This document shows positions 1 to 15,439 of a stretch of 32,521 nt of DNA, piece by piece (within the stretch, counting starts at the first letter, position 1; every line of letters starts with the position of its first letter). Source of the stretch: a virus. Where the stretch lies: positions 1 to 32,521 of IMG/VR virus record IMGVR_UViG_3300030406_006660; one strand, 5' to 3'. The notes below the pieces were generated by a model. It did no database searches and was not told the origin of the DNA. It worked only from the letters and a program-made list of their open reading frames with translations. The position numbers and the translations under genes were made by a program.

Positions 1-879
1 ACGAGTCCTCTTTATGCTCTTCACGTAGAAGCTGGTAATGATTTGCCTGCAAAATTTTCTAATGATGGTGATAGGGCAAGATTATTAATCAATGATAATG
101 ATACTGAAGGGTATGTTATCGTACAAAATAGTAAATTTAGTATAGGACAAGCAAATAGTGTATCTACAAATAATTTAACTATAGATGGTTCAGGAAATGT
201 CGGTATTGGGGACACAAGTCCAAATGCAAAACTTGAAGTTGTTGGTTCTACAATATTTGGTAATACGCCTACAGCTACACATAAATTTACAGGTTCTTTA
301 GATATTAGTGGTAGTGTTGATAATGCTACACCAACATTAAAAGTTCACGGTAGTGGCTCAGGAATATTTGAAGTAAAAGGTACAAACGGAACATTATTTT
401 CTGTTAATGATATAATGGAAGGGAGCATTTTTAGTGCAAACACAATAGCAGGTATACCTGTTATAGAAGCATTTAGTGACCAAAAAGTAACATTAGGGTC
501 ACCAAGTGCCCCTGTAACCATTACAGCGCTTTCATCATCAATGGATGTTTCAGGTTCTTTACGTGCTGTACCAAAAACAGATAGTCTTACAGGTGCAAAT
601 AATCTTGACCTTTCAAAGAATACAAACTTTAACATTACAATTACAGGAAATATTACTTTAACTCCAATTGGCTTGAACGGTCGAGATGGACAAAGTGGTA
701 TAATTACTCTTATACAAGATAGTTCAGGTGGTCATTCAATAACTCTTAATTCATTGTTTAAAACGCCTCGAGGAGATTCTATAGCTTTTGACACAACTGC
801 AGACGGCATATCATTAATGTCTTATTATGTGATAAACGCCTCAAACGTAGCAGTTAACTACTTAGGCCCATTCTCGTAA
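1..879 (+). CDS. Tail fibre/structural protein, 3' part only
   Basis: The frame is open from the first base, so the N-terminus lies outside the window; 292 residues are visible. The protein contains the motif GNVGIGDTSPNAKLEV (about bases 190-240), a beta-strand repeat common in tail fibres and appendages of marine phages, often seen before a chaperone domain. Further DISGSV- and VHGSGSG-type beta repeats follow. The last 80 or so residues (NITLTPIGLNGRDGQSG onward) look like the compact beta-sandwich tip found at the end of many phage fibres, and I see no peptidase S74 chaperone domain after it. The next gene starts 17 bases downstream behind an AGGAG ribosome site, so both are probably on one late transcript. 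Likely role: host-contact fibre or a virion appendage. The fibre call is firm; its place on the virion is unknown. Confidence 0.75.
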   Translation, partial: TSPLYALHVEAGNDLPAKFSNDGDRARLLINDNDTEGYVIVQNSKFSIGQANSVSTNNLTIDGSGNVGIGDTSPNAKLEVVGSTIFGNTPTATHKFTGSLDISGSVDNATPTLKVHGSGSGIFEVKGTNGTLFSVNDIMEGSIFSANTIAGIPVIEAFSDQKVTLGSPSAPVTITALSSSMDVSGSLRAVPKTDSLTGANNLDLSKNTNFNITITGNITLTPIGLNGRDGQSGIITLIQDSSGGHSITLNSLFKTPRGDSIAFDTTADGISLMSYYVINASNVAVNYLGPFS

Positions 880-896
880 TGAGATAGGAGTTACAG

Positions 897-3800
897 ATGG
901 CAGGTGGATTCGGATTTTTTGACGAATTAAAATTCAGTACTGAATTTAATACAACTAAAAGTACAAGTACTTCAAGGAATACCTCCTTAGCTACTGCAAC
1001 TAATAGAGCAACTTCTACTTCAAAAAATACGATTACTACTTTTGCAACTACTTTAGAAACTATTACAACTTATGAAACTTCAAAATCTACGATTACAACG
1101 TTTAATACTACCCAAGAAACTGCAACTACAAAAGCAACTTCTACTTCGAAGTTAACCACCACTACTTTTGAAACTACTTTAGAAACTCTTACAAGTAAAG
1201 CTACTTCTACATCTAAATCTACTATAACAACTTTTAATACCAGCAAGTCAACCATAACTTCTTACAATACAACATTGGCTACTGCTACCACAAAAGCAAC
1301 TTCTACTTCGAAGAGTACGATAACTTCTTATAATACAACAAGAGCTACTGCTACAACTAAATCCACTTCTACTTCGAAGACTACGATAACAACTTTCAAT
1401 ACTACCAGGTCAACTACTACGGTTTACAATACAACATTGGCTACTGCTACTACAAAAGCAACTTCTACTTCGAAGAGTACGATAACAACTTTTAATACTT
1501 CTAAATTAACTATTACAACTTTTAATACTACTAAAAGTACGATTACAAAATATAATACAACGTTAGAAACTGCTACAACTAAAGCAACTTCTACGTCTAA
1601 ATCTACTATAACCACGTTTAATACTACCAAAGAAACGATAACAACATATAATACCACGCTCTCGACTATTGAATCACGTTCCACCTCCACGTCAAAAAAC
1701 ACGATTACAACTTACAATACCACACTTTCAACTATTGAAACGAGAAATACTTCTACTTCAAAGTCAACTATTACAACTTTTAATACTACACGAAGTACTA
1801 TTGAATCGAGGTCTACGTCTACAAGTAGAAGTACAATAACAACTTATAACACTACCTTATCAACTGCTACAACTAAAAATACGGCTACTACAAAAAGTAC
1901 AATTACAACGTATAATACTACTCGGAGTACGATAGAAACGAGAGCGACTTCTACGTCAAAAACTACAATAACGACTTTTAATACTACAAGGTCAACTATT
2001 GAATCGAGGTCTACGTCTACAAGTAAATCTACCACTACAACTTATGAAACTTCGAAAAATACAATAACAACGTTTAATACTACGCTTTCGACTATTGAAA
2101 CAAGAGCTACTTCTACATCAAAAAGTACGATTACAACTTTTATAACTTCGAAGAGTACTATAACAACATTTAACACTACGTTGGCAACTATTACAACTTA
2201 TGAAACTACCAGGTCAACTATTGAATCACGAGCTACTATTACCTCAAAACTTACAATAACTACTTTCAATACTACTTTGTCAACTCTTACAAGTGTGGCT
2301 ACAGCTACAACTAAGTCAACTATTACAACGTTCAATACGATTACAACATATTCGACTACTACAACTTTCAACACTACGAAGAGTACAATAACAACTTTTA
2401 TTACTACGAAAGAAACCACAACTACTTTTGCTACTGCAACTACGAGGTCTACAATTACAACGTTTAATACGATTACAACTTATAGTACCATAACTACCTT
2501 TAACACTACTAAAAGTACCATAACTACTTTTAATACAACAAGAAGCACTATTGAAACAAGAACTACAAGTACTTCAAGAACCACCATAACTACTTATAAC
2601 ACTACTAAGTCAACTATTGAAACAAGAGCAACAGGAACTTCAAAAAGTACTATAACTACTTTTAATACTACCAAGTCAACTATTGAAACGAGAGCAACAG
2701 GAACTTCAAAAAGTACCATAACTACTTTTAATACTACAAAAGACACTATTACAATTTTTGGAACTATAACAACTTATAGTACAATTACAACTTTCAACAC
2801 TACAAAGTCAACTACTACGGTTTACAATACTATTACAACATATGGCACGGTGACGGTTTTTAATACCACAAAGTCTACTATTACAACTTTTATTACTACG
2901 TTGTCAACTATTACAACGTACAACACTACAAAATCAACTACTACGGTTTATAGTACAACAACAACTTTTAATACAAATACTACGTATATCACAACGTATA
3001 ATACGATTACAACTTATTCTACCACAACAACTTTTGGCACGATTACGACATACACAACCACCACCACATTTAACACAATTACAATTTATAGCACGATTAC
3101 AGCTCTATTAACTTCGAGAGAAACGAATACAACTTATAATACTTCAAGAAACACTATTGAAACAAGAGCTACTTCGACTTCGAGAAGTACCATAACTTCT
3201 TACAATACTTCAAAGAATACTATTGAATCAAGAGCCACTAATACAACTAAAAGCACTTCAACTTCAAGGTCTACTATTGAATCAAGAACTACGACTACAA
3301 CGTTTAATACGCAAAAAACAACTATTACTTCGTATTTTACATCAAGAAATACTATTGAGTCAAGAAATACAATTACTTCGTATAACACGACTACAACTTT
3401 TATTACTTTTAGAACTACCACATATATCACAACTACAACTTTTAATACGAATACTACTTTTATGACGGTTTATAATACCATAACTACTTATGCAACTTTT
3501 TATGGTACATATAGAAATACTACTACAATTTTCAATACAGGGTATTTCACTTATTATAAAACATTTTTCTTTACCTTTGACCCGAGGTCAGGTGGTGAGA
3601 CAACAAGTAGAAATACTTCAAGATTTACATCGAAAACTACTTCAAGAACCACGTCTACTTTGTTAGGAATCACAAGTAGGGCAACTACAAGAGCAACGGC
3701 AGAGTCAAGGGCGACAACTAAATCTACAGCAACTTCGAAGAATACTATTGAGTCAAGAACTACAATTTTTAATACTACAAGAGCAACAGGAACTTCAAAA

Positions 3801-6257
3801 AGTACAACCACAATTTACGCAACAAATACAGCTTTGATAACTTCGAGGGAAACGAATACAACGTACAATACTTCAAAGTCAACTACAACTACTTATTCTA
3901 CTACTACCGTGTATAACACAATTACAACATATGCTACAATTACAACTTATACCACCTCAACAACTTTTATTACATCAAAAAGTACTACAACAACTTATAA
4001 TACAATTACCACGTATACAACTTCTACAACGTTTAATACGCAAAAAACAACTATTACTTCGTATTTTACTAATAGAAGTACTATTGAATCAAGGTCAACT
4101 TCTACTTCAAGAAATACCATTGAAACGAGGACAACTTCTACTTCAAAAAGTACCATAGAAACACGTGCTACATCAACTTCAAAAGCAACAACTAAAGCTA
4201 CAGCAACTTCGAAGTCTACTATTGAGTCAAGAAGTACGATTACAACTTTTATTACCACTAAAAGCACAATAACTTCTTTTAATACTACTAAAAGTACTAT
4301 AACTACTTACAATACTGCAAAGTCAACTATTGAAACAAGAGCTACTTCTACATCAAAAAGCACTATAACTACTTACAATACCACACTTTCAACTATTGAA
4401 ACAAGGACTACAAGTACTTCAAAAGTTACCACAACTACTTTTAATACTACTAAGTCAACTATTACTGCTTATAATACAATCACTACTTATAGTACGATTA
4501 CGACTTTCAATACCACAAAGTCTACTATTACCGCTTATAATACAATCACTACTTATAGTACGATTACGACTTTTAATACCACAAGGTCTACTATTACAAT
4601 TTTTGGCACTATAACAACTTATAGTACAATTACAACTTTTAATACTACGAAGAGTACCATAACTACTTACAATACCACACTTTCAACTATTGAAACAAGA
4701 GCAACGTCTACTTCGAAAAGCACTACAACAACTTTTAATACAGCTACTTCGAAGACTACGATTACAAGTTTTAATACTACTAAGAGTACAATAACTACTT
4801 TCAATACAACTTTGAGTACAATAGAAACAAGAGCTACATCGACATCGAAGAGTACTATAACTACTTACAATACCACAACAAAGTTTAATACTATTACAAC
4901 TTTTAATACTACTAAAGGTACGTCTACCGTATTTTCTACTATAACAACTTATAGTACAATTACAACTTTTAATACTACTACCACTACCATAACAACTTTT
5001 GCAACTACGAAGAATACTATAACGAGTTTTAATACAACTAAAAATACTATAACGACTTTTAATACTATAACAACTTATAGCACTATAACGACTTTTAATA
5101 CAACTAAAAATACTATAACGACTTTTAATACGACCACAAGTACTATAACTACTTTTAATACTATAACGGTTTATTCAACCATTACAACTTATAATACTAC
5201 TGATAATACTACTACCGTATATAACACAATTACAACTTATGGTACGGTTACAACGTTTAATACAACTACCACAACCACAACTACTTTTAACACAATAACA
5301 ACGTTTAATACTATAACAACGTTTAATACAACCACAACCACCACAACTACTTTTAATACTATAACGGTTTATTCAACTATAACTACGTTTAATACAACTA
5401 CAAGTACTACAACAACTTTTAATACAATTACAACTTATAGCACAATTACAACGTTTAATACAACTACCACAACTACAACTACTTTTAACACAATAACGGT
5501 TTATTCTACTATAACAACGTTTAACACTACTACCACAACCATAACAACTTTTAATACGACTAAAAATACTATAACTACGTTTAATACTATAACGACTTTT
5601 AATACAATTACAACGTTTATAACAGAAACAGCTACTATTACAACTTTTAATACTACTAAAGGAACTTCAACTACTTTTGAAACTTCTACAAGTACTATAA
5701 CGACTTTTAATACGATAACTACTTATAATACCATAACAACTTTTGAAACTTCAACAAGTACCACAACAACTTATAATACTACTGATAGTACAACTACGGT
5801 ATTTAATACAATAACCACTTTTGGTACGGTAACAACTTTTATTACTTCAACAAGTACCATAACAACTTTTAATACAATTACAACGTTTGATACTATTACA
5901 ACTTTTATTACGAGTACAAGCACTACAACTACTTTTGAAACTTCAACAAGTACCATAACTACGTTTAATACCATAACAAAGTTTAATACGATTACAACTT
6001 TTAATACGACCGAAGGTACCGTAACGACTTTTAATACAATTACAACCTTTAATACCATAACAACTTTTGAAACTTCAACAAGTACCATAACAACGTTTAA
6101 CACAACTACTACGACCATAACTACTTTTGACACGACTAAAAATACTATAACCACGTTTAACACAATTACAACGTTTGATACTATTACTGCTTTCTCTACA
6201 GAATTTAGTACGATAACAACTTTTAATACATCCAGGATAACAAGTTATTACTTCTAA
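897..6257 (+). CDS. Giant Thr-rich hexad/tetrad repeat protein, probable fibre
   Basis: This 1,786-residue protein begins with a short unique leader (MAGGFGFFDELK). From residue 13 nearly everything parses into 6-residue units (bulky residue, then N/S/A, then T, then x-x-T/S; e.g. KSTITT, RATSTS) and 4-residue units (FNTT, YNTT). Bulky positions are F, Y, K, R or L. Thr makes up roughly 40-50%; I find no Cys, Trp or His and only one Pro. Even spacing of 4 and 6 puts all bulky side chains on one face of an extended strand, which suggests a beta-structured rod, perhaps trimeric; this is inference. Residues 895-901 (DPRSGGE), almost exactly central, break the pattern. K/R are common in the first two-thirds and rare in the last 400 residues. 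It has an AGGAG ribosome site and lies between a fibre gene and sugar-enzyme genes. I recognise no named family; a very long fibre or whisker is the best guess. Confidence 0.7.
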   Translation: MAGGFGFFDELKFSTEFNTTKSTSTSRNTSLATATNRATSTSKNTITTFATTLETITTYETSKSTITTFNTTQETATTKATSTSKLTTTTFETTLETLTSKATSTSKSTITTFNTSKSTITSYNTTLATATTKATSTSKSTITSYNTTRATATTKSTSTSKTTITTFNTTRSTTTVYNTTLATATTKATSTSKSTITTFNTSKLTITTFNTTKSTITKYNTTLETATTKATSTSKSTITTFNTTKETITTYNTTLSTIESRSTSTSKNTITTYNTTLSTIETRNTSTSKSTITTFNTTRSTIESRSTSTSRSTITTYNTTLSTATTKNTATTKSTITTYNTTRSTIETRATSTSKTTITTFNTTRSTIESRSTSTSKSTTTTYETSKNTITTFNTTLSTIETRATSTSKSTITTFITSKSTITTFNTTLATITTYETTRSTIESRATITSKLTITTFNTTLSTLTSVATATTKSTITTFNTITTYSTTTTFNTTKSTITTFITTKETTTTFATATTRSTITTFNTITTYSTITTFNTTKSTITTFNTTRSTIETRTTSTSRTTITTYNTTKSTIETRATGTSKSTITTFNTTKSTIETRATGTSKSTITTFNTTKDTITIFGTITTYSTITTFNTTKSTTTVYNTITTYGTVTVFNTTKSTITTFITTLSTITTYNTTKSTTTVYSTTTTFNTNTTYITTYNTITTYSTTTTFGTITTYTTTTTFNTITIYSTITALLTSRETNTTYNTSRNTIETRATSTSRSTITSYNTSKNTIESRATNTTKSTSTSRSTIESRTTTTTFNTQKTTITSYFTSRNTIESRNTITSYNTTTTFITFRTTTYITTTTFNTNTTFMTVYNTITTYATFYGTYRNTTTIFNTGYFTYYKTFFFTFDPRSGGETTSRNTSRFTSKTTSRTTSTLLGITSRATTRATAESRATTKSTATSKNTIESRTTIFNTTRATGTSKSTTTIYATNTALITSRETNTTYNTSKSTTTTYSTTTVYNTITTYATITTYTTSTTFITSKSTTTTYNTITTYTTSTTFNTQKTTITSYFTNRSTIESRSTSTSRNTIETRTTSTSKSTIETRATSTSKATTKATATSKSTIESRSTITTFITTKSTITSFNTTKSTITTYNTAKSTIETRATSTSKSTITTYNTTLSTIETRTTSTSKVTTTTFNTTKSTITAYNTITTYSTITTFNTTKSTITAYNTITTYSTITTFNTTRSTITIFGTITTYSTITTFNTTKSTITTYNTTLSTIETRATSTSKSTTTTFNTATSKTTITSFNTTKSTITTFNTTLSTIETRATSTSKSTITTYNTTTKFNTITTFNTTKGTSTVFSTITTYSTITTFNTTTTTITTFATTKNTITSFNTTKNTITTFNTITTYSTITTFNTTKNTITTFNTTTSTITTFNTITVYSTITTYNTTDNTTTVYNTITTYGTVTTFNTTTTTTTTFNTITTFNTITTFNTTTTTTTTFNTITVYSTITTFNTTTSTTTTFNTITTYSTITTFNTTTTTTTTFNTITVYSTITTFNTTTTTITTFNTTKNTITTFNTITTFNTITTFITETATITTFNTTKGTSTTFETSTSTITTFNTITTYNTITTFETSTSTTTTYNTTDSTTTVFNTITTFGTVTTFITSTSTITTFNTITTFDTITTFITSTSTTTTFETSTSTITTFNTITKFNTITTFNTTEGTVTTFNTITTFNTITTFETSTSTITTFNTTTTTITTFDTTKNTITTFNTITTFDTITAFSTEFSTITTFNTSRITSYYF
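2584..2739 (+). repeat. Recent 66-base tandem duplication in the Thr-rich array
   Basis: The stretch around GAGCAACAGGAACTTC at 2626 recurs at 2692, exactly 66 bases later. Only a few differences separate the copies across the unit, in contrast with the diverged codons elsewhere in the array. It encodes two copies of the 22-residue unit FNTT + KSTIET + RATGTS + KSTITT. Confidence 0.85.
3295..3340 (+). repeat. 46-base direct repeat, copy 1
   Basis: These 46 bases encode most of TTFNTQKTTITSYFT and recur without a change at 4024-4069, an offset of 729 bases (243 codons, in frame). A second matched pair (TSRETNTTYNTS, starting at 3110 and 3839) has the same 729-base offset. A segment of about 230-270 bases on each side of the array centre therefore shares one origin, although the middle of the copies has diverged. 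Confidence 0.85.
4024..4069 (+). repeat. 46-base direct repeat, copy 2
   Basis: Identical to 3295-3340; together the two copies flank the non-repeat centre of the Thr-rich protein. Confidence 0.85.
4461..4592 (+). repeat. Second 66-base tandem duplication
   Basis: The stretch from 4461 is repeated from 4527 with only about four base changes. It encodes the 22-residue sequence ITAYNTITTYS + TITTFNTTKST twice. As at 2626/2692, the unit is 66 bases, so 22 residues is the step in which this array has most recently grown. Confidence 0.85.
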
Positions 6258-6330: not shown

Positions 6331-7302
6331 ATGGCTAAAATGCAAAACGAAATGTTCAATCAACAGGATATGAACGAACGCATTGGTGAGTATGAAAAAA
6401 ATAAATATTTGGTTGACAATTTAGAGCCTATAGATAAATTTTTCAGAAAACGTATGAGAAGGTATACTACAGAGTTTTCATACGATGTTATGGCAAACGA
6501 AATACCATATTTTAAAACTATAAATTATACAGAATATGCCACATCTTTTATGATGGTTCCTCTTAGTCAAATAATGAGAGAGCAACAAATTAAAGACGCT
6601 TATTATGATGAAGAAAGTGAAGAATATCCAATATTAGATTGGGTATCATATTTCAGAAGTAATGTAGAAAACAAAGTATCTAACAAGTATGAAGATAGAA
6701 TAGACTTTACAAAAGACCCTCGATACGATAGAGAACTTGAGGCATTAGTAATTTTACCTGGTTCTAATAAAATTAAAAGTAGAATTTGTTTAAATAAACT
6801 AAAGACTATAAAAGAAAGACATGGAGATAAAGTTTTATTTAAACCACACCCTATAACTCAACATCAGATTATAGGTGAGTTAAAAGATTTATTTGGAGAG
6901 TCTTGTATATTACCACGTGAAGCAGATTTGTATGCTTTTATGATGAAGGTTCCTAAAATCTACACGACAAATATTAGTGAATCTTGTTTGTATTCAGTTT
7001 GTTTAGATAAAGAGATTGACCACATTGAAGTTCATCAAGATATGGCTTGGGGTTCTTTCTATCATATTAATTGGCCTATATTTCAATGTGAAGTTCGTGG
7101 ACAAGATACAAAATATTTTATAAATAAAATATTATCAAGTCCTAAATGTGGAATAGTAAATCCTAAAGTAGACTTAAATTGGAAGAAAAAACTTAGTGAT
7201 TATTTAACTTACATACACAAAGAGAGGGAGTTATGGTACGAGGTTTTTGTACGTGATGACCCTATTACAAAACCTGAAGAATTTAAAAAGAAGAAATCTT
7301 AG
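6331..7302 (+). CDS. GT-B-type glycosyltransferase, capsule-synthesis-like
   Basis: This 323-residue protein has a C-terminal half that looks like the nucleotide-sugar-binding domain of capsule-type glycosyltransferases. A strand (ALVILPGSNK, about residues 138-147) leads to VLFKPHPIT with KPHP at 171-174, then an acidic-Leu segment (READLYAFM) and a strand followed by a Ser-rich turn (YTTNISESC). KPHP plus a following Ser/Thr-rich loop is typical of the capsule polysaccharide and CDP-glycerol-transferase-like GT-B families, which include the Kdo-transferring KpsS/KpsC group. The N-terminal 130 residues are not recognised. It opens the sugar cassette behind a good AAGGAG site and the TATTTATA motif; kdsA starts 10 bases after its stop. 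Donor and acceptor cannot be read. Glycosyltransferase: likely; Kdo transferase: speculative. Confidence 0.55.
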   Translation: MAKMQNEMFNQQDMNERIGEYEKNKYLVDNLEPIDKFFRKRMRRYTTEFSYDVMANEIPYFKTINYTEYATSFMMVPLSQIMREQQIKDAYYDEESEEYPILDWVSYFRSNVENKVSNKYEDRIDFTKDPRYDRELEALVILPGSNKIKSRICLNKLKTIKERHGDKVLFKPHPITQHQIIGELKDLFGESCILPREADLYAFMMKVPKIYTTNISESCLYSVCLDKEIDHIEVHQDMAWGSFYHINWPIFQCEVRGQDTKYFINKILSSPKCGIVNPKVDLNWKKKLSDYLTYIHKERELWYEVFVRDDPITKPEEFKKKKS

Positions 7303-7312
7303 GAGTTTTTAA

Positions 7313-8722
7313 ATGAAAAAAGTTTCAGTTTCAAACATAACATTTGGAGGTGATGATACACCTTTAATAGCAGGACCTTGTGTTGTTGAGACATACAAAC
7401 TTGCTACTGATGTTGCAAAACAACTTGTGAAGATAGGAGAAAAAACAAACACTCCTATAATTTATAAAAGTTCTTTTGATAAAGCAAATCGTTCTTCTAA
7501 TTCATCTTACAGAGGACCTGGAATAGAAAAAGGATTAGAAGCTCTAACAAGAGTAAAAGATGAAACAGGCCTACCTATACTTACTGATGTTCACGAAGTT
7601 CATCACGTAAATCAAGTAGCAGAAGTTGCTGACATATTACAAATACCTGCATTTTTATGTAGACAAACAGATTTGATAAAAGCTGCAGCACAAACAGGTA
7701 AAGTAGTAAATGTTAAAAAAGGTCAATTTTTATCTCCTTGGGAAATAGAAAATGTTATTGTAAAAATTACAGAAGAAGGTAACGAGAATATTCTGATTAC
7801 AGAACGTGGTACACAATTTGGATATCAAAATCTTGTTGTTGATATGAGGTCTATTCCTATTATGCAACAATTTGGATTTCCTGTTATCTTTGATGCAACA
7901 CATAGTAATCAACTTCCTGGTGGTAACGGAACATCAACTGCGGGTATGAGAGATATGGTTCCTTATTTAGCTAAAGCGGCAGTAGCAGTTGGTTGTGATG
8001 GTTTATTCTTTGAAACACATCCTAATCCTGAAGAAGCAAAATCAGATGCTTCTACTCAATGGCCTTTAGATAAGTTAGAAGAAGTTATTTCAAATCTAAA
8101 GATGAAACCAGCTAAGGTAGTTGAGGTTCGTCCTAGTAAAGATTTAGGAGAAAGTCAAGCAGAAAATTATGTAGATAATTTAAAAAAGAAAACTTTAGAA
8201 CATCTTGAAGTTGATTTTAATTCTATGAAAGAAAAAGAAAAGCCTATTGAAACTAAAAAAGAAGATGGATTTCAAGGCACAGCTAATCATTTAATGAATG
8301 AACGTAGTTTAACAAAACGAATAGACATTAACAATGAATCTGATTACGCAAAAATAGATAATTCAGTAAAAATAGAATCAGTAATTTCTGATGGGTATCT
8401 TGATACATTGAATCCTACAGAAGTAGATGAGGTTTTAGTTAGTATGTTTGAATTAGCAGAACGTTTGATAGTTTTACATCTTGAACCTAAACGAAGACCT
8501 ATGCAATGGTGGATGGATAAATTTCAATTTTTAAGAGAAAGACACGACCAAAAAGAGTTAGACATTTTTGTAGTTTTTGACGCAAAGCCGGATGAATTAA
8601 AAATGATTACATTACCTAAAAATTACTATCAAAAGAAAAAAGAACAAGAAGATAGATTAAAGAATAAATCAGTTCCTTTAGTTAAGTGGACAGATGGTAA
8701 TAAACCAAGACCAAGGATATAA
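7313..8722 (+). CDS. kdsA: Kdo-8-phosphate synthase (metal type) with an extra C-terminal domain
   Basis: Residues 1-272 are a full KdsA, which condenses phosphoenolpyruvate with arabinose 5-phosphate to Kdo 8-phosphate (EC 2.5.1.55) in the cytoplasm. Signatures in order: IAGPCVVET, YKSSFDKANRSS (K52, K57), TDVHE, IPAFLCRQTD, NVKKGQFLSPW, ERGTQFGYQNLVVDMR, FDATHSNQLPGG and FFETHP. C23, H197, E234 and D245 match the metal ligands of the metal-dependent class (the Aquifex type); the metal-free enzyme has Asn in place of Cys. Usual length is about 280, but this protein is 469. Residues 273-325 are a charged linker. Residues 326-430 (SDGYLDTLNPTEVDEVL, then LIVLHLEPKRRP, QWWMDKF) resemble the distal half of a class I methyltransferase lacking its glycine-rich SAM motif, a weak call. 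It has an AGGAG ribosome site. No kdsB, kdsC or kdsD is visible here, so the host or other phage genes must supply those steps. Confidence 0.92.
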   Translation: MKKVSVSNITFGGDDTPLIAGPCVVETYKLATDVAKQLVKIGEKTNTPIIYKSSFDKANRSSNSSYRGPGIEKGLEALTRVKDETGLPILTDVHEVHHVNQVAEVADILQIPAFLCRQTDLIKAAAQTGKVVNVKKGQFLSPWEIENVIVKITEEGNENILITERGTQFGYQNLVVDMRSIPIMQQFGFPVIFDATHSNQLPGGNGTSTAGMRDMVPYLAKAAVAVGCDGLFFETHPNPEEAKSDASTQWPLDKLEEVISNLKMKPAKVVEVRPSKDLGESQAENYVDNLKKKTLEHLEVDFNSMKEKEKPIETKKEDGFQGTANHLMNERSLTKRIDINNESDYAKIDNSVKIESVISDGYLDTLNPTEVDEVLVSMFELAERLIVLHLEPKRRPMQWWMDKFQFLRERHDQKELDIFVVFDAKPDELKMITLPKNYYQKKKEQEDRLKNKSVPLVKWTDGNKPRPRI

Positions 8723-8725
8723 TAT

Positions 8726-9070
8726 ATGCACACAGCAGGAAAAGTATGGGGCAAGACAGCTAATATATTTTCTAATCCTAATTTTGAAGTACATAGGATT
8801 GAAGTGAATAAAGGCGGTTATTGTTCTAAACATAAACACAAATATAAATTCAATGCTTTCTATGTAGAGAGTGGTGAATTAGAAATTATAATTTATAAGA
8901 ACGATTACGATTTAGTAGATACTACGATTCTCAAGGCAGGTGATATGACGATTGCAAAACCAGGTGAATACCATAGTTTTAAAGCAAACGCAAAAACAAT
9001 CTGTTATGAATTTTATTGGGTTGAATTGAATCACGATGATATTGAGAGAGAATCTGTAGGCGGTGCTTAG
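8726..9070 (+). CDS. Small single-domain cupin
   Basis: A 114-residue protein with one cupin barrel. Motif 1 is GGYCSKHKHKYKFNAFYVESG, reduced here to its ligands H36, H38 and E48 with G50 closing it. Motif 2 is GDMTIAKPGEYHSF, giving H83. These are the usual metal-binding positions, so it probably binds a divalent metal. It resembles the cupin part of mannose-6-phosphate isomerase/GDP-mannose pyrophosphorylase and sugar epimerases. It starts 3 bases after the kdsA stop and its TAG overlaps the next GTG by one base, so it is translationally tied to the sugar genes. A sugar isomerase, epimerase or sugar-binding role is plausible; the substrate is unknown. Confidence 0.75.
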   Translation: MHTAGKVWGKTANIFSNPNFEVHRIEVNKGGYCSKHKHKYKFNAFYVESGELEIIIYKNDYDLVDTTILKAGDMTIAKPGEYHSFKANAKTICYEFYWVELNHDDIERESVGGA

Positions 9071-9882
9071 TGTACACAATTCCTATTCAAAATCTTGTAA
9101 AAGATAAAAGAGTTATCATTGTAGGAAATTCAGTAGAAATGATGAAGTACGAGTATGGAGACTTCATTGATTCTTTTGATATTGTTGTACATTTAGGTGC
9201 TGCAATCTCACGTGGTGAAGAATATCATAAAAATCTTGGTAGTAGAACTGATATATGGTCTACAGGTACTTTTAGATTACATTGTTATAATGATGTTGTT
9301 GATGAGTTCATAAATGGTCAATTTAAAGATACTATGGTGATTTTTAATAGAGTACGAACTAAATTGTTAGATGTAGACTCTATAGTTTCTTGGGAAAAAA
9401 GTTTACCACAAATTCCTAAAATAGATATGTTTAATGATTTAGAAATAATAAAAATATTAAACGATTTAAATTATTTACGAGGATTTGGAAACGGAATAGA
9501 AGGGCCTGCAAACTCACAAAGACCATCCGGCGGATTTATGACTATTTTGTATTTCTTAAAAAAAGTAAAAACTTACAAAAGTTTAGACATAATAGGTTTT
9601 GATTTTTTTAGAAAAGTAACAAATGTACATCGAGGTCCTGCAGATGAAAAGAATGTCAACAAACCATTTAGTTGGTATCTTCCAATTAGAAGTGAGAAGA
9701 CCGGTATAACACATCCACATAATAAAAACTTAGAATTTAATTATATAAAAAAGTTAGAAGAAGATAAAAAATTGAATTGGAACGTGTTGTCTGATTTAAA
9801 AGAAAAAATGATAAAATACGATGGTTGGTTACATAAACATAAAAAAATTTACACAGATGCTATTCGTGAAGTCGATTCTTGA
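9070..9882 (+). CDS. GT29 sialyltransferase-like glycosyltransferase
   Basis: A 270-residue protein showing the sialyl motifs of family GT29. Motif L is at about residues 14-61: RVIIVGNSVEMM, then GDFIDSFDIVVHLG and LGSRTDIW. Motif S is at about 151-178: RPSGGFMTILYF, then LDIIGFDFF. Motif VS, H-x4-E, fits H217 to E222, which would place the catalytic His at 217. GT29 enzymes transfer sialic acid, or in the plant relatives probably Kdo-type acids, from a CMP-activated donor. With a Kdo-8-phosphate synthase two genes upstream, a Kdo or related 2-keto sugar donor is a reasonable inference. No signal peptide or membrane segment is visible, so it acts in the cytoplasm. The GTG start shares its G with the preceding stop (TAGTG), and its TGA overlaps the next ATG. 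Confidence 0.72.
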   Translation: MYTIPIQNLVKDKRVIIVGNSVEMMKYEYGDFIDSFDIVVHLGAAISRGEEYHKNLGSRTDIWSTGTFRLHCYNDVVDEFINGQFKDTMVIFNRVRTKLLDVDSIVSWEKSLPQIPKIDMFNDLEIIKILNDLNYLRGFGNGIEGPANSQRPSGGFMTILYFLKKVKTYKSLDIIGFDFFRKVTNVHRGPADEKNVNKPFSWYLPIRSEKTGITHPHNKNLEFNYIKKLEEDKKLNWNVLSDLKEKMIKYDGWLHKHKKIYTDAIREVDS

Positions 9883-10796
9883 TGAAAAAAATTGATGATA
9901 AACATAGTTTTCTTCAGTATCGAAAAGACCAAGAGAAGAAGCACTTACAATTAATTGAAAATACTAAGAATCCTTTGCATAGTATTTTAACGGTTGAGAT
10001 GAATCTTACAGAATTATGTAATAGAACGTGTGTTTTCTGTCCACGTCACGACCCTAAAGTATATCCAAATAGAAATTTAAATACAACTATAGAAGATGCA
10101 AGTACAATAGCAAAACGATTAGCAGATTTTAATTATCTTGGAAGAGTATCTTTCAGTGGATTTGGAGAGAACTTTTTAAATAAACAATTTAATGAAATTG
10201 TTCAAGCGATGCGAAACGAATTGCCTAATAATGTATTTGAGTGTAACACTAATGGTGATTTTTTAAATAAACAGACCGTTACTGAAATATATGAAAGTGG
10301 TATGGATATGTTATACATAAATCTATACGATGGTCTTGAACAAATAGAACCTTTTGTTGAGATAATGAAAGAAGCAGGTATATCTGAAGACAACTACAAA
10401 TTACGTGCGCATCACACACAAGATGAATGGGGATTGTTTGTTAATAATAGAAGTGGACTTATAGATTGGATAGGATTTGATGAAGATGATATTGAAAATT
10501 TAAAAGGAACAAAATGTCACTATCCTTATTATAAAATGTTTGTAGATTGGAATGGTGATGTATTGTTTTGTTCTAATGATTGGGGTAGAGAAATAATAGT
10601 AGGTAATTTAATTGAAAGTTCTGTTATGGATGTTTGGATGGGTGAAGAGATGAAAAAAGTTCGTGATAGACTTTCAGTAGGAGATAGAAGTCACAGCCCG
10701 TGTAATACGTGTTCAGTAAAAGGTGACTTATTTGGAGAGCCAAGTTTTAATTTAATTAATGAGTATTATGAGAGTAGCAATAACAGGTCACACTAA
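9882..10796 (+). CDS. Radical SAM enzyme with SPASM-like C-terminus
   Basis: A 304-residue protein, with ATG at 9882 chosen because it overlaps the previous stop (TGATG); a TTG one codon earlier is also possible. ELCNRTCVFCPR gives the CX3CX2C cluster motif (C46, C50, C53) that binds the SAM-reducing [4Fe-4S] cluster, and SGFGE near residue 92 fits the SAM-contacting GGE position. The C-terminal part (C212, C230, C274, C277) looks like a reduced SPASM/twitch domain holding one further cluster; classical SPASM domains have seven Cys. Such enzymes modify peptides or sugars (epimerisation, dehydrogenation, thioether bonds). Its place inside a sugar cassette suggests sugar modification, but modification of a phage protein such as the neighbouring Thr-rich fibre cannot be excluded. 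It overlaps the next gene by 29 bases. Confidence 0.85.
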   Translation: MKKIDDKHSFLQYRKDQEKKHLQLIENTKNPLHSILTVEMNLTELCNRTCVFCPRHDPKVYPNRNLNTTIEDASTIAKRLADFNYLGRVSFSGFGENFLNKQFNEIVQAMRNELPNNVFECNTNGDFLNKQTVTEIYESGMDMLYINLYDGLEQIEPFVEIMKEAGISEDNYKLRAHHTQDEWGLFVNNRSGLIDWIGFDEDDIENLKGTKCHYPYYKMFVDWNGDVLFCSNDWGREIIVGNLIESSVMDVWMGEEMKKVRDRLSVGDRSHSPCNTCSVKGDLFGEPSFNLINEYYESSNNRSH

Positions 10797-11319
10797 AGGA
10801 CTCGGAAAAGAGTTATATAATCGTTTTGGTGATGTAAAAGGATTTTCATCAAGTAATGATTATGATGTTTCAGATAGGTATGACAGAGCAAAAATTATTA
10901 ATGAAATACATAAATTTGATTTGTTTATAAATAATGCACATCCATTCTTTGACCAAACTCGATTGTTAATGGAAGTGTTTCAAGAGTGGAAATATGAAGA
11001 CAAAACTATTGTAAATATAATTAGTAGAGCAAAGTACGATAACATATCTAAAGGATTTATGTATTCTGCTTCAAAAGCATCATTATCTCATCTTTCACAT
11101 AATTTAAGATTTAACACAGATAAGAAATGTAAGATAATTGATGTAAATCCAGGACTACTTGAATCAGATTTGTCAAGTTTGACCTACAAAGAGATAGCTG
11201 ATATTGTTATTTGGTGTATTACTCAACCTAAACATATTGAAATAGGAGAAATATCTGCTTGGCACAGAGATTCATATGTTGAAGTACAAAATGAAAAAGC
11301 AAAAAGATTAAGTAAGTGA
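10768..11319 (+). CDS. Short-chain dehydrogenase/reductase
   Basis: A Rossmann-fold SDR, 183 residues from the ATG at 10768. An ATG three codons earlier (10759) is possible, but MRVAITG is the usual SDR opening. TGHTKGLG at 6-13 binds the nucleotide, NNAH at 55-58 matches NNAG, Y99 and K103 (YSASK) form the catalytic pair, and VNPGLLESD is the usual PG motif. It is about 60 residues shorter than a standard SDR because the substrate-binding C-terminus is trimmed. It overlaps the radical SAM gene by 29 bases and the next gene by 4, so it belongs to the sugar operon. Likely job: NAD(P)-dependent reduction or oxidation of a sugar or sugar nucleotide; the substrate is unknown. Confidence 0.85.
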   Translation: MRVAITGHTKGLGKELYNRFGDVKGFSSSNDYDVSDRYDRAKIINEIHKFDLFINNAHPFFDQTRLLMEVFQEWKYEDKTIVNIISRAKYDNISKGFMYSASKASLSHLSHNLRFNTDKKCKIIDVNPGLLESDLSSLTYKEIADIVIWCITQPKHIEIGEISAWHRDSYVEVQNEKAKRLSK

Positions 11320-12023
11320 ACGTTTATATAGGATATGATAGTAGACAAGATTATTCTGAAAAATATTCAGATGTTGTAAATCCACCTTACCAAGTTTCTA
11401 AGTATTCTATACAAAAATATAACAAAAATATTGAAGTAGAACCAATTATAGTTTCAGAACTAAAAAGAAAAGACTTATATTGGAGAGGAACTGACTATTT
11501 ATCAAGTACAGAGTTTGTTTATAGTAGATTTTTAACTCCGTATCTTAATGGTTATAAAGGATTAGCTTTATTTTGTGATTCTGATTTTTTATGGCAGTGC
11601 GATGTTAATGAATTATTAGATTATTATGATAGTAAGTATTCTGTTATGTGTGTAAAACATAATTATACACCACCTGAAAGTACAAAGATGGATGGTAAAG
11701 CACAAACACATTATCCAAGAAAGAATTGGTCAAGTTTAATGTTGTTTAATTGTGAACATCCTGATATTAAAAAATTAAGTGTGAAAAATATTAACAAAAA
11801 AGACGCAAAATGGTTGCATAGATTTGAATGGACAAGTGATGAATGTGTAGGAGAAATACCAGCAACTTTCAATTGGTTAGAAGGTTGGTATAATGACAAC
11901 GTAGACCCAAAAGCTATACATTATACACGTGGTGGGCCTTGGCATAAAACGTGGGATGGTCACTATAAAGATAAATGGGTAAAAACATATAACAAATTAG
12001 TTAAGGAGAAGTCAAATGGCTGA
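11316..12023 (+). CDS. GT-A fold glycosyltransferase (GT8-like)
   Basis: A 235-residue protein. ALFCDSDFLW carries the DxD metal and nucleotide-sugar motif (D88, D90). The N-terminus MNVYIGYDSRQD and the segment WSSLMLFNC are as in GT8-type enzymes. AIHYTRGGPW gives the C-terminal His (H202) that usually completes the metal site. It therefore is probably a retaining transferase using a UDP- or GDP-sugar. The GTG start overlaps the preceding TGA (GTGA), and the 3' end overlaps the next gene by 8 bases. It is the last gene of the cassette. Acceptor and sugar are unknown. The glycosyltransferase call is good; the exact family number is less sure. Confidence 0.75.
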   Translation: MNVYIGYDSRQDYSEKYSDVVNPPYQVSKYSIQKYNKNIEVEPIIVSELKRKDLYWRGTDYLSSTEFVYSRFLTPYLNGYKGLALFCDSDFLWQCDVNELLDYYDSKYSVMCVKHNYTPPESTKMDGKAQTHYPRKNWSSLMLFNCEHPDIKKLSVKNINKKDAKWLHRFEWTSDECVGEIPATFNWLEGWYNDNVDPKAIHYTRGGPWHKTWDGHYKDKWVKTYNKLVKEKSNG

Positions 12024-12376: not shown

Positions 12377-14791
12377 ATGGCAGAAAGAATTGTAAGTCCC
12401 GGTGTATTTACGCGGGAAAAAGATTTATCATTCTTGCCTCAGGGTGTAGCAGAAATTGGAGCGGCGATTGTCGGACCAACTTTACGAGGCCCTGCATTTA
12501 CTCCAACCGTAGTAACAAGTACATCTGACCTTAAAAAGAAGTTTGGACCAACAGGCGGAACAAGACCTTATTATACAAGTATTGCAGCAGAACGTATGCT
12601 TGATAATGGAGCTCCGAGTGTTACTATTGTTAGAGTATTAGGCATAGGAGGATATCAGGTTGATGCACTCAACCTTTGTGAAGGAACAGGACCTAATAAT
12701 GGTCGAGTCTTAATGACTTTAGTACCTTCAAATAAAGCAAGTGCAGGAACAGGAGATTTAAGTCAATCAAGAATTAGTCACGTAGTAAACTATGCATCAG
12801 GTTCTTCAAACTTAGCATCTGCATCACTTGATGTTGCTTTGTTTGTTTCAGGTTCAGATGTTTCTTTAGAAACTATTGAAGGTTTTCGTGTTGATTCCGG
12901 TACAAACTCTATTGGTGTATCAGCACAAGATACAAACAACTCAGTTTATTTATACAAAGATTATAACTCTGAAGGTAACGTTTTAAATCCTGCACCAACA
13001 GCATCTGTATCGATGTCTTTTCATACACTTGATTTATCAGGCGGTTCACAGACATATAGTGCTAATGGTAATGCAGGTACTTGGACAGGTAATAGTTCTT
13101 ACTCTGTAGCAAGAACACCTTATATCCAATCACAAAAGTTTGGAAGCGCAAGAAAGAACTTGTTCAGAGTTTATACACGTGGGTATGGCGATGATATGAA
13201 TAAAAATTATCACATATCTATTCAAAACGTAAAAGCTGCTAATAGTGCTAACGTAGCTCCAGGATATGCTCAGTTTGATTTATCTGTTTATCTATTTGAT
13301 GCAGACGCAAATAGCTATTCTGAAGTAGAAACTTTTTCGCAGTGTAGTTTAGACCCTGAAAGTAACAGCTATGTTGTTAACAAAATCGGTGATGGATTTG
13401 AAACTTGTGATTCACAAGGTAATCTTACAAAGTATGGTGCTTTTGGAAACAAATCTGATTTTATCAGAATAGGTGATTACTCTATATTACCATCTTTAGA
13501 TAAATCTACAGCACCGATGGGACATAGTGGTGTTTTTAATCCAGGACCAGGTGGCATAAATGTACCATCCGCTTCTTTTCACAGAAGCATTGATGATGCA
13601 AGTGGAAATGTCGATTTAGGTAAATTCTATGGCTTTGATTTTAATACTGCTAACAAGTTAAATCAAGCATACTTATCTCCTATACCTGCTACAGCAACCG
13701 AAGGAGCTAATCCTACAATGTCTCTTGAAGATATGAAAGGTACTTCAGGCGGAGCTACAGGTTTTGCTGATGCTTCAACAAATCTATCATTGGGTTCAGG
13801 TACACACGTACAACAACGTAGATTTAAAGTTCCTTTTCAGTGGGGCTTTGATGGAGAGAATCCTGCTCGTAACATATACTTCAATGGCGACATTGTATCA
13901 AGTAACTCGCAAGGATTTAATTTAGCAACCTCTACTGATAGTGGTTCAGTTGCTTATAATCAAGCGTTAGGTACAATTAAAGACCCTGATAGAATTGATA
14001 TCAATATGATTATCACTCCAGGTATCATACACGAGTATCATCCTTCAGTTAGTAATAACGCAATGAGTATAGCTAAGAGTCGTGGAGACGCTTTCTATAT
14101 TATGGATGGTTCACGTTGGGGTGCTACGGTATCTCAAGCAGTTAGTAATGTATCAGGTATCGATAACAACTATGTAGCTACTTACTTTCCTTGGGTGAGC
14201 ATACAAAACCCAGGTGGTGGCGGTGTAATTTGGGTACCACCATCAGTAGTAATGGCAGGTGCATATGCTAACAACGATAGTATAGGCCAAGAGTGGTTTG
14301 CTCCCGCAGGTCTTAATCGTGGTTTGATAGCTGCGCAGGATGTTAAGAGAATCTTGACACACACAGAGAGAGATGAATTATACGATGGTAGAGTTAATCC
14401 TATTGCTTCTTTCCCAGGACAGGGTATTGTAGCATTTGGTCAGAAAACTCTACAATCAAGACCATCTGCTCTTGACAGAGTAAATGTTCGTAGATTATTA
14501 ATTAACTTGAAGAAGTTTATTGCTTCATCTTCAAGATTCTTAGTATTCGAACAAAATACTGCGGCAACAAGAAATCGTTTCTTGAACATTGTCAATCCTT
14601 ATATGGAATCAGTACAACAACGTTCAGGTCTTTCGGCTTTCAGAGTAGTAATGGATGATACCAATAATACTCCTGAAGTAGTAGATAGAAACCAATTAGT
14701 TGGTCAAATCTTCGTACAGCCTACAAGAACTGCTGAGTTTATTGTTCTTGACTTTGTTGTCTTGCCAACAGGAGCAGCATTTCCCGAATAA
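12377..14791 (+). CDS. Contractile tail sheath protein
   Basis: An 804-residue sheath subunit, the equivalent of T4 gp18, which forms the contracting outer layer of the tail. MAERIVSPGVFTREKDLS is a classic sheath N-terminus, followed by GAAIVGPTLRGPAFTPT and the segment LKKKFGPTGG. The C-terminal core (ALDRVNVRRLL, ATRNRFLNIVNPY, then VQPTRTAEFIVLDFVVLPTG) is the conserved domain that packs on the tube and links neighbouring subunits. T4 gp18 is 659 residues; the extra length lies in the variable middle (about residues 130-520), which forms outward-facing insertions in this family. It has an AGGAG ribosome site, its own candidate late promoter and an intrinsic terminator just downstream, as expected for a highly expressed virion gene. 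Confidence 0.95.
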   Translation: MAERIVSPGVFTREKDLSFLPQGVAEIGAAIVGPTLRGPAFTPTVVTSTSDLKKKFGPTGGTRPYYTSIAAERMLDNGAPSVTIVRVLGIGGYQVDALNLCEGTGPNNGRVLMTLVPSNKASAGTGDLSQSRISHVVNYASGSSNLASASLDVALFVSGSDVSLETIEGFRVDSGTNSIGVSAQDTNNSVYLYKDYNSEGNVLNPAPTASVSMSFHTLDLSGGSQTYSANGNAGTWTGNSSYSVARTPYIQSQKFGSARKNLFRVYTRGYGDDMNKNYHISIQNVKAANSANVAPGYAQFDLSVYLFDADANSYSEVETFSQCSLDPESNSYVVNKIGDGFETCDSQGNLTKYGAFGNKSDFIRIGDYSILPSLDKSTAPMGHSGVFNPGPGGINVPSASFHRSIDDASGNVDLGKFYGFDFNTANKLNQAYLSPIPATATEGANPTMSLEDMKGTSGGATGFADASTNLSLGSGTHVQQRRFKVPFQWGFDGENPARNIYFNGDIVSSNSQGFNLATSTDSGSVAYNQALGTIKDPDRIDINMIITPGIIHEYHPSVSNNAMSIAKSRGDAFYIMDGSRWGATVSQAVSNVSGIDNNYVATYFPWVSIQNPGGGGVIWVPPSVVMAGAYANNDSIGQEWFAPAGLNRGLIAAQDVKRILTHTERDELYDGRVNPIASFPGQGIVAFGQKTLQSRPSALDRVNVRRLLINLKKFIASSSRFLVFEQNTAATRNRFLNIVNPYMESVQQRSGLSAFRVVMDDTNNTPEVVDRNQLVGQIFVQPTRTAEFIVLDFVVLPTGAAFPE

Positions 14792-14950: not shown

Positions 14951-15439
14951 ATGCCTGATTTGATTGGAGCTAACGAAATATTTTTTACACCTTTCGAGCC
15001 TAAAACGAAAAATCGTTTTATCATGGAAATCGAAGGTGTACCGAGTTTCTTAATTAGAGCGGCTAATCGTCCATCAATAGAATTTGAAGAGATTGAATTA
15101 AATCATATTAATGTTAAGCGATATGTAAAAGGGAAAGCTTCTTGGCAGCCCTTAGACATTACTCTTTATGACCCTATCGTACCAAGTGGTGCTCAAGCAG
15201 TAATTGAGTGGATTAGACTTGGACACGAATCAGTAACAGGAAGAGACGGATACTCTGACTTCTATAAAAAGAATGTGACATTCCAATTACTTGGACCTGT
15301 TGGTGATGTTGTTGAAAAGTGGGACCTTAAGGGTGCTTACATACAATCTGCAAATTTTGGAGATTTGGATTGGTCAGTTAGTGAACCTGTAGACATAACT
15401 TGTACGTTACGTTATGACTACGCAGTATTACAATTCTAA
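14951..15439 (+). CDS. Tail tube protein (T4 gp19 family)
   Basis: 162 residues, essentially the same length as T4 gp19 (163), which stacks in hexamer rings as the inner tail tube. Recognisable parts: the N-terminal segment FEPKTKNRFIMEIEGVPSFL, the centre WQPLDITLYDPIVPSGAQA, and the C-terminal strands LKGAYIQSANFGDLDWS and CTLRYDYAVLQF. It follows the sheath gene as in many contractile phages. The next gene begins one base after its stop. The call is firm. Confidence 0.95.
   Translation: MPDLIGANEIFFTPFEPKTKNRFIMEIEGVPSFLIRAANRPSIEFEEIELNHINVKRYVKGKASWQPLDITLYDPIVPSGAQAVIEWIRLGHESVTGRDGYSDFYKKNVTFQLLGPVGDVVEKWDLKGAYIQSANFGDLDWSVSEPVDITCTLRYDYAVLQF

Follow-up and report, generated by a model that had tools for sequence, protein, structure and literature searches.

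Background

Phage tail-fibre shafts are known as trimers, built as a triple beta-spiral or a triple-stranded beta-helix or processed by Peptidase_S74, a fibre chaperone. Regular spacing of Thr on one face of a strand characterises the T-x-T beta-solenoids of antifreeze and ice-nucleation proteins. In bacteria, the autotransporters TibA and AIDA-I and the serine-rich repeat adhesins are repeat-rich surface proteins whose genes adjoin a glycosyltransferase gene of their own, and glycosylation of TibA influences its stability and oligomerisation (PMC3835316). As for viruses, the mycobacteriophages Che8 and Rita encode glycosyltransferases and carry glycans on virion proteins, the major capsid protein being the reported target (PMC11256854, citing Freeman et al. 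2023).

The locus described here encodes a Thr-repeat protein, P0001, followed by a glycosyltransferase-like gene, GT323. With the trimeric shafts P0001 has in common a fibre locus, beta-compatible repeats and, in one member of its class, a Peptidase_S74 end; it differs from them in lacking Gly/Pro turn positions, in being 45% Thr, and in a mixed grammar of four- and six-residue units with steps of 10 or 12 residues. Its Thr spacing is like that of the antifreeze and ice-nucleation proteins, yet coil length is not constant and there is no sequence match. The pairing of a repeat-rich protein with an adjoining enzyme gene recalls the bacterial adhesins, whereas P0001 would be a virion protein and uses Thr, not Ser; no relatedness or homology of the enzymes is claimed. 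Unlike in Che8 and Rita, the candidate target here is a fibre of Thr repeats, and the gene for the putative enzyme is closely linked to it.

Locus and gene neighbourhood

The window, that is, the whole stretch of DNA analysed, comes from a marine phage with a contractile tail; it is an IMG/VR fragment of 32.5 kb and also has genes for the baseplate hub and wedge. Over its full length the tail sheath shares 37-40% identity with those of a megaphage and Microcystis phage Mel-JY01; with that of Flavobacterium phage immuto the identity is about 50%, over part of the length. The Thr-repeat gene lies upstream of the sheath, with a tail-fibre-like ORF before it and a series of sugar-related genes after it:

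1..879, + strand: tail-fibre-like protein, C-terminal part, directly upstream of P0001 (phrog_9942, 5.6e-5)
897..6257, + strand: Thr-repeat protein P0001, 1786 aa, an open ORF, stop included in the coordinates
6331..7302, + strand: GT323, 323 aa, glycosyltransferase-like, the constant downstream partner (LPGSN, KPHP and SE motifs; phrog_26179)
7313..8722, + strand: Kdo-8-P (3-deoxy-8-phosphooctulonate) synthase domain, KdsA type (TIGR01362, 388 bits against a cut-off of 314; PF00793)
8726..9070, + strand: cupin, WbuC-like, below cut-off
9070..9882, + strand: GT29 sialyltransferase-family protein (PF00777, 32.5 bits against a cut-off of 23)
9879..10796, + strand: radical SAM / SPASM protein (PF04055, PF13186)
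10759..11319, + strand: short-chain dehydrogenase (PF00106)
11316..12023, + strand: conserved phage protein (phrog_28018), glycosyltransferase-like by eye only, with no Pfam or NCBIfam match
12377..14791, + strand: tail sheath (phrog_23, 5.6e-71)
14951..15439, + strand: tail tube (phrog_4542, 1e-30)

P0001 is thus encoded among virion and tail genes, as befits a tail-fibre shaft. A longer copy of the upstream ORF in a related locus (L005) matches phrog_18345 (2.6e-10), and relatives of P0001 have additional fibre-like ORFs upstream, with a tail-sheath stabiliser match among the upstream ORFs. P0001 itself has no Peptidase_S74, recognisable anchor domain or tip domain, while a Thr-repeat ORF of its class in L166 (243-3038) ends in Peptidase_S74 (23.1 bits, cut-off 22) and that of L153 has an S74-like end by eye. 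Because of the tail-fibre-family neighbours, the sheath and tube that follow and the S74 end in L166, the identification of P0001 as a fibre protein appears well supported, and the fibre locus proposed in the earlier note is supported.

The row of Kdo-8-P synthase, cupin, GT29, radical SAM and short-chain dehydrogenase genes between fibre and sheath (7313-12023) is an unusual sugar cassette for a phage. Close relatives show length-matched ORFs in the same order where their sequence extends; other lineages are devoid of the KdsA/GT29 cassette.

Repeat grammar

P0001 can be divided into five segments:

897..932, + strand: N-terminal 12 residues, MAGGFGFFDELK, of which relatives keep MANGAFGFLDELKF (alignment of 7 relatives)
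933..3398, + strand: repeat arm 1, residues 13-834, in 10/12-residue steps (unit parse, parity)
3399..3965, + strand: central irregular stretch, residues 835-1023, with tetrad runs and the non-repeat FDPRSGG (residues 894-900)
3966..6224, + strand: repeat arm 2, residues 1024-1776
6225..6254, + strand: conserved C-terminal end, NTSRITSYYF

The N-terminal residues are a possible attachment end. The central motif resembles VDPFRGP, found in the centres of the L012 and L014 proteins.

Thr makes up 45.1% of the protein and Ser 11.5%. Cutting the chain before F/Y/K/R/L, with no further assumption, yields 193 hexads and 77 tetrads, and the third position is Thr in every one of them (193/193 and 77/77). 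A parse into four- and six-residue units spans 99.9% of P0001, with 226 hexads, 107 tetrads and Thr at position 3 in 330 of 333, whereas a strict unit definition covers 87.7%, and 200 shuffled sequences average 25% and never exceed 30%; the earlier claim that the protein is built from such Thr units therefore holds. So does the 22-residue step (4+6+6+6) proposed at the same time: autocorrelation is high only at even lags (0.50 at lag 22), with most odd lags at about 0.18. The underlying step is nonetheless shorter. The number of hexads between consecutive tetrads is odd in 38/40 cases in arm 1 and 38/41 in arm 2 (76/81), compared with 41% after shuffling, none of 20,000 shuffles reaching the observed value, and because of this odd number the step amounts to two units, i.e. 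10 (4+6) or 12 (6+6) residues, of which 22, 32 and 54 are sums. The parity rule is broken in the centre, at about residues 835-1023.

The chain alternates between two kinds of positions. Odd positions of the units (1/3/5) hold Thr, F, Y, K, R, E and L, with not a single Ser, Ile, Asn or Ala, and even positions (2/4/6) mainly T, S, I, N and A, so that all Ser (205), Ile (155), Asn (126) and Ala (57) of P0001 sit on the face without bulky residues. That bulky residues would line one side of a strand had been anticipated, and all Ser does lie on the other; Thr, which had been assigned to that other side too, occurs on both, with 543 residues on the bulky face and 262 opposite. Of 303 Glu residues at hexad position 5 family-wide, 300 precede an Arg/Lys, likely forming a same-face salt bridge. 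The longest alternation without phase slip extends over 3,404 residues (L012).

Length differences respect the same steps: indels between the L007 and L009 proteins measure only 12 (four times) or 22 (twice) residues, and in more distant pairs of relatives nearly all are even in length. Codon identity between repeats at the main repeat lags is 0.42-0.48, near the 0.39-0.41 of random expectation, and dN/dS between relatives is about 0.25-0.3; the repeat pattern is therefore held by selection on the protein. An artefact of tandem DNA duplication was ruled out, the codons between repeats being nearly randomised.

The strict alternation, together with the 10/12 step, speaks for a regular beta structure. 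An ordered beta structure is proposed in preference to a random Thr-rich chain because of the even lags, the 76/81 parity, the indels of 12 and 22 residues and the Glu5-Arg/Lys coupling. The earlier note suggested that it may be a new beta-rod or beta-solenoid; a rod, a solenoid and a trimeric helix are all candidate shapes. AlphaFold monomers gave no confident fold, with a mean pLDDT of 34.5 for residues 1-330 of P0001 with 7 relatives, and of 27.3 for a 108-aa register-matched segment with 40 rows. Strands in the former model start at residues 279, 289, 301, 311 and 323, hence 10 or 12 apart, at a confidence too low to rely on. PDB matches of P0001 to the Roco leucine-rich repeat (E 2e-6) were rejected as the product of a coincident 22-residue period in a low-complexity chain, and an antifreeze function was considered and found to be unsupported.

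Relatives and distribution of the gene pair

Close IMG/VR relatives of P0001 reach 3,418 aa, N-terminal MANGAFGFLDELKF and C-terminal ends of the TSRITSYY type being common, and the 323-aa gene is next downstream wherever flanking sequence exists. A DNA-pattern scan for Thr repeats alone retrieved 20 further loci, whose Thr-repeat ORFs have differing terminal domains. Of these loci, 16 keep their downstream flank intact, and 12 of the 16 have a GT323 relative (45-47% identical) as the gene that comes next. Used as a profile for scanning, GT323 gave 301 relatives, of which 80 were kept; 72 of the kept viral loci had enough upstream DNA to be usable, and a Thr-repeat ORF ends within 1.5 kb upstream of the GT323 relative in 71 of these 72, the number of independent pairs being lower because many loci are near-identical strains (roughly 15-20 types by their C-termini).

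The pair is found in KVP40 (0254/0256), phi-pp2, QD01, 6E35.1a and F86; in the Caulobacter phages Lullwater (gp41/42), Quill and BL198 (gp046/047), as well as Cr30, where the repeat is more degenerate; and in the C. fetus plasmid mp1 (a Campylobacter phage-plasmid), the Vibrio plasmid pTHAF64_c and a prophage of Ilyobacter, in which a discoidin-like domain precedes the repeat. The partner stands without an adjacent Thr-repeat ORF in L124 and Vibrio phage D479. Conversely, L043, L051, L058 and L059 form a separate Thr-repeat lineage with no partner nearby; here, conserved proteins of 193 and 176 aa come next (DUF6875 weakly). A scan of cellular genomes with P0001 found no relative, and that with GT323 had as its sole find a contig from a Flavobacteriales MAG, which carries two Thr-repeat ORFs and is probably phage.

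Position 3 is Thr in 99.4% of units in the window family and 95.3% in 95 other proteins, with Ser at no more than 0.8%, although Ser often occupies positions 2, 4 and 6 (about 100 proteins).

Neither Pfam, NCBIfam nor PHROG has a family matching the repeat; tblastn and blastn of P0001 against GenBank phages gave no match, most likely owing to low-complexity masking, and a search of the literature on Thr-rich phage fibres or repeat strings returned nothing relevant. Among the database families and papers found here, none covers the Thr-repeat class. P0001, treated as isolated in the earlier note, is instead one member of a broad class tied to a glycosyltransferase-like gene.

Several observations on individual loci may be recorded. 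The Thr-repeat proteins of phi-pp2 (L163 3163-3693) and QD01 (L162 3187-3693) are labelled 'cell wall mannoprotein', evidently a misannotation driven by composition. In L150 (1-1752), the Thr-repeat ORF ends in a Hint/intein-like stretch, LDVEPNDVFYANGILTHN, without a Pfam match, which suggests self-processing. Tandem pairs of Thr-repeat ORFs, mostly with an uncharacterised protein of 170-200 aa between them, occur in L040, L044, L049, L055, L153 and L166. In L079, L162, L159, L168 and L169 the Thr-repeat/GT pair has a radical SAM gene a few genes away, the proteins being mostly too divergent to count as orthologues. Several ORFs of 2-oxoglutarate-oxygenase appearance (by eye) in L039 (2081-4936) are flanked by a short ORF of Thr tetrads on one side and by a 29% GT323 homologue on the other. 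L075 (11559-12923; contig G001 31559-32923), on a 126-kb phage contig, has three ORFs with a type IV pilin-like start, GFTLIELIMVMIILGILGAVAIPR, being either phage-borne prepilins or the sign of a chimeric contig.

The partner gene

GT323 matches phrog_26179 (9.9e-25), which is listed as of unknown function and has no record of the Thr-repeat link. The window's own GT323 has no Pfam match and no PDB sequence match; matches to GT-B families come from three distant members and cover the KPHP region (Capsule_synth, 1.6e-3 and 6.1e-3; Glyco_transf_52, 5e-4), all below the Pfam curated cut-offs, the best scores among GT323 relatives being 18.4 against 20 bits for Capsule_synth and 19.8 against 26.1 for GT52. 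Across 15 diverse members, at identities as low as 20-25%, K-x-H-P never varies and S-E hardly does, in keeping with a conserved HP-type catalytic motif of the GT52 / Capsule_synth type of GT-B enzymes. On account of the sub-cut-off matches and these motifs GT323 is called glycosyltransferase-like, and it looks like a GT-B glycosyltransferase; conservation of the motifs at such low identity suggests catalysis. Since one partner is found behind Thr-repeat ORFs of differing terminal domains, the repeat itself is the substrate pointed to.

Discussion

The reading I favour, and hold on balance to be somewhat probable, is that P0001 is a beta-structured, probably trimeric fibre shaft whose exposed Thr residues are O-glycosylated by GT323. 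P0001 would form the shaft of a long virion fibre, its chain alternating strictly between two faces, with the small-residue face (S, T, N, I, A) packed inside and the face of Thr and F/Y/K/R/E exposed. Units of 10 or 12 residues (tetrad plus hexad, hexad plus hexad) would be stacked along the fibre axis, most likely in a trimeric assembly as in other phage fibres, and fibre length would shift through the gain or loss of whole 10/12-residue steps. GT323 would be a dedicated GT-B-type enzyme acting on the exposed Thr during assembly, and the glycans may stabilise the shaft, shield it or give it binding properties; in the window phage, the Kdo-8-P synthase and the GT29-type transferase encoded nearby probably provide the sugar or elongate it. 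Thr is taken as the target because position 3 is Thr in 95-99% of units and hardly ever Ser, which is common at even positions, yet beta propensity alone could produce this preference. Observed are the repeat grammar and its conservation, the near-obligate pairing of the two genes, the surrounding fibre genes and the S74 end in one relative; the trimer, the inside and outside faces, the activity and substrate of GT323 and Thr glycosylation by it are what I infer.

The partner of the same shaft might act differently: GT323 could be a chaperone for folding or assembly of the fibre specifically, its GT-B fold degenerate, or it could modify the host surface in superinfection exclusion and simply travel with the fibre. 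Fibre chaperones are often encoded directly 3' of fibre genes, GT323 almost always adjoins the fibre and its Pfam support is weak; such a role is nevertheless unlikely, for the invariant K-x-H-P and near-invariant S-E suggest catalysis, and the constancy of the partner while terminal domains differ suggests that the repeat is the substrate.

As to the fold, a monomeric beta-solenoid with insect-antifreeze-like T-x-T ladders and 10-12 or 22 residues per coil would agree with T-x-T on one face, small residues opposite and steps of 10, 12 and 22. I consider it rather improbable: a mixture of 4- and 6-residue units leaves the coil without a constant length, P0001 is without cysteines or caps, and AlphaFold, which often finds monomeric solenoids, returned the low pLDDT values above and no confident constant-coil fold of the T-x-T antifreeze type. 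The composition, the glycosyltransferase-like partner and the low AlphaFold confidence would also suit an extended, disordered, mucin-like stalk with O-glycosylated Thr, but disorder requires neither two-face alternation, maintained for up to 3,404 residues without phase slip, nor the 10/12 step and Glu-Arg coupling, which makes this stalk very improbable.

A generalisation of the glycosylated, beta-structured shaft, which I advance tentatively and as the less probable outcome, is that bulky-x-Thr repeats constitute a phage-wide fibre class with a beta fold of its own, on which a near-obligate GT-B enzyme reads the register and glycosylates the array of exposed Thr, yielding sugar-coated fibres across phages of several host phyla.

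The two-gene module, which escapes family databases on account of the low complexity of its repeat protein, recurs in marine myophages, KVP40-type vibriophages, T7-like phages of Caulobacter, and prophages or phage-plasmids of Campylobacter, Vibrio and Fusobacteria. With so strict a grammar, the repeat is also a candidate for a beta fibre that can be designed. Should the enzyme modify the fibre, both receptor binding and stability in the environment would hinge on a glycan in phages that are already culturable and in which, as far as the literature search shows, a fibre glycan has apparently never been sought. To sum up, the evidence suggests a widespread and so far unrecognised class of phage fibres that may be sugar-coated.
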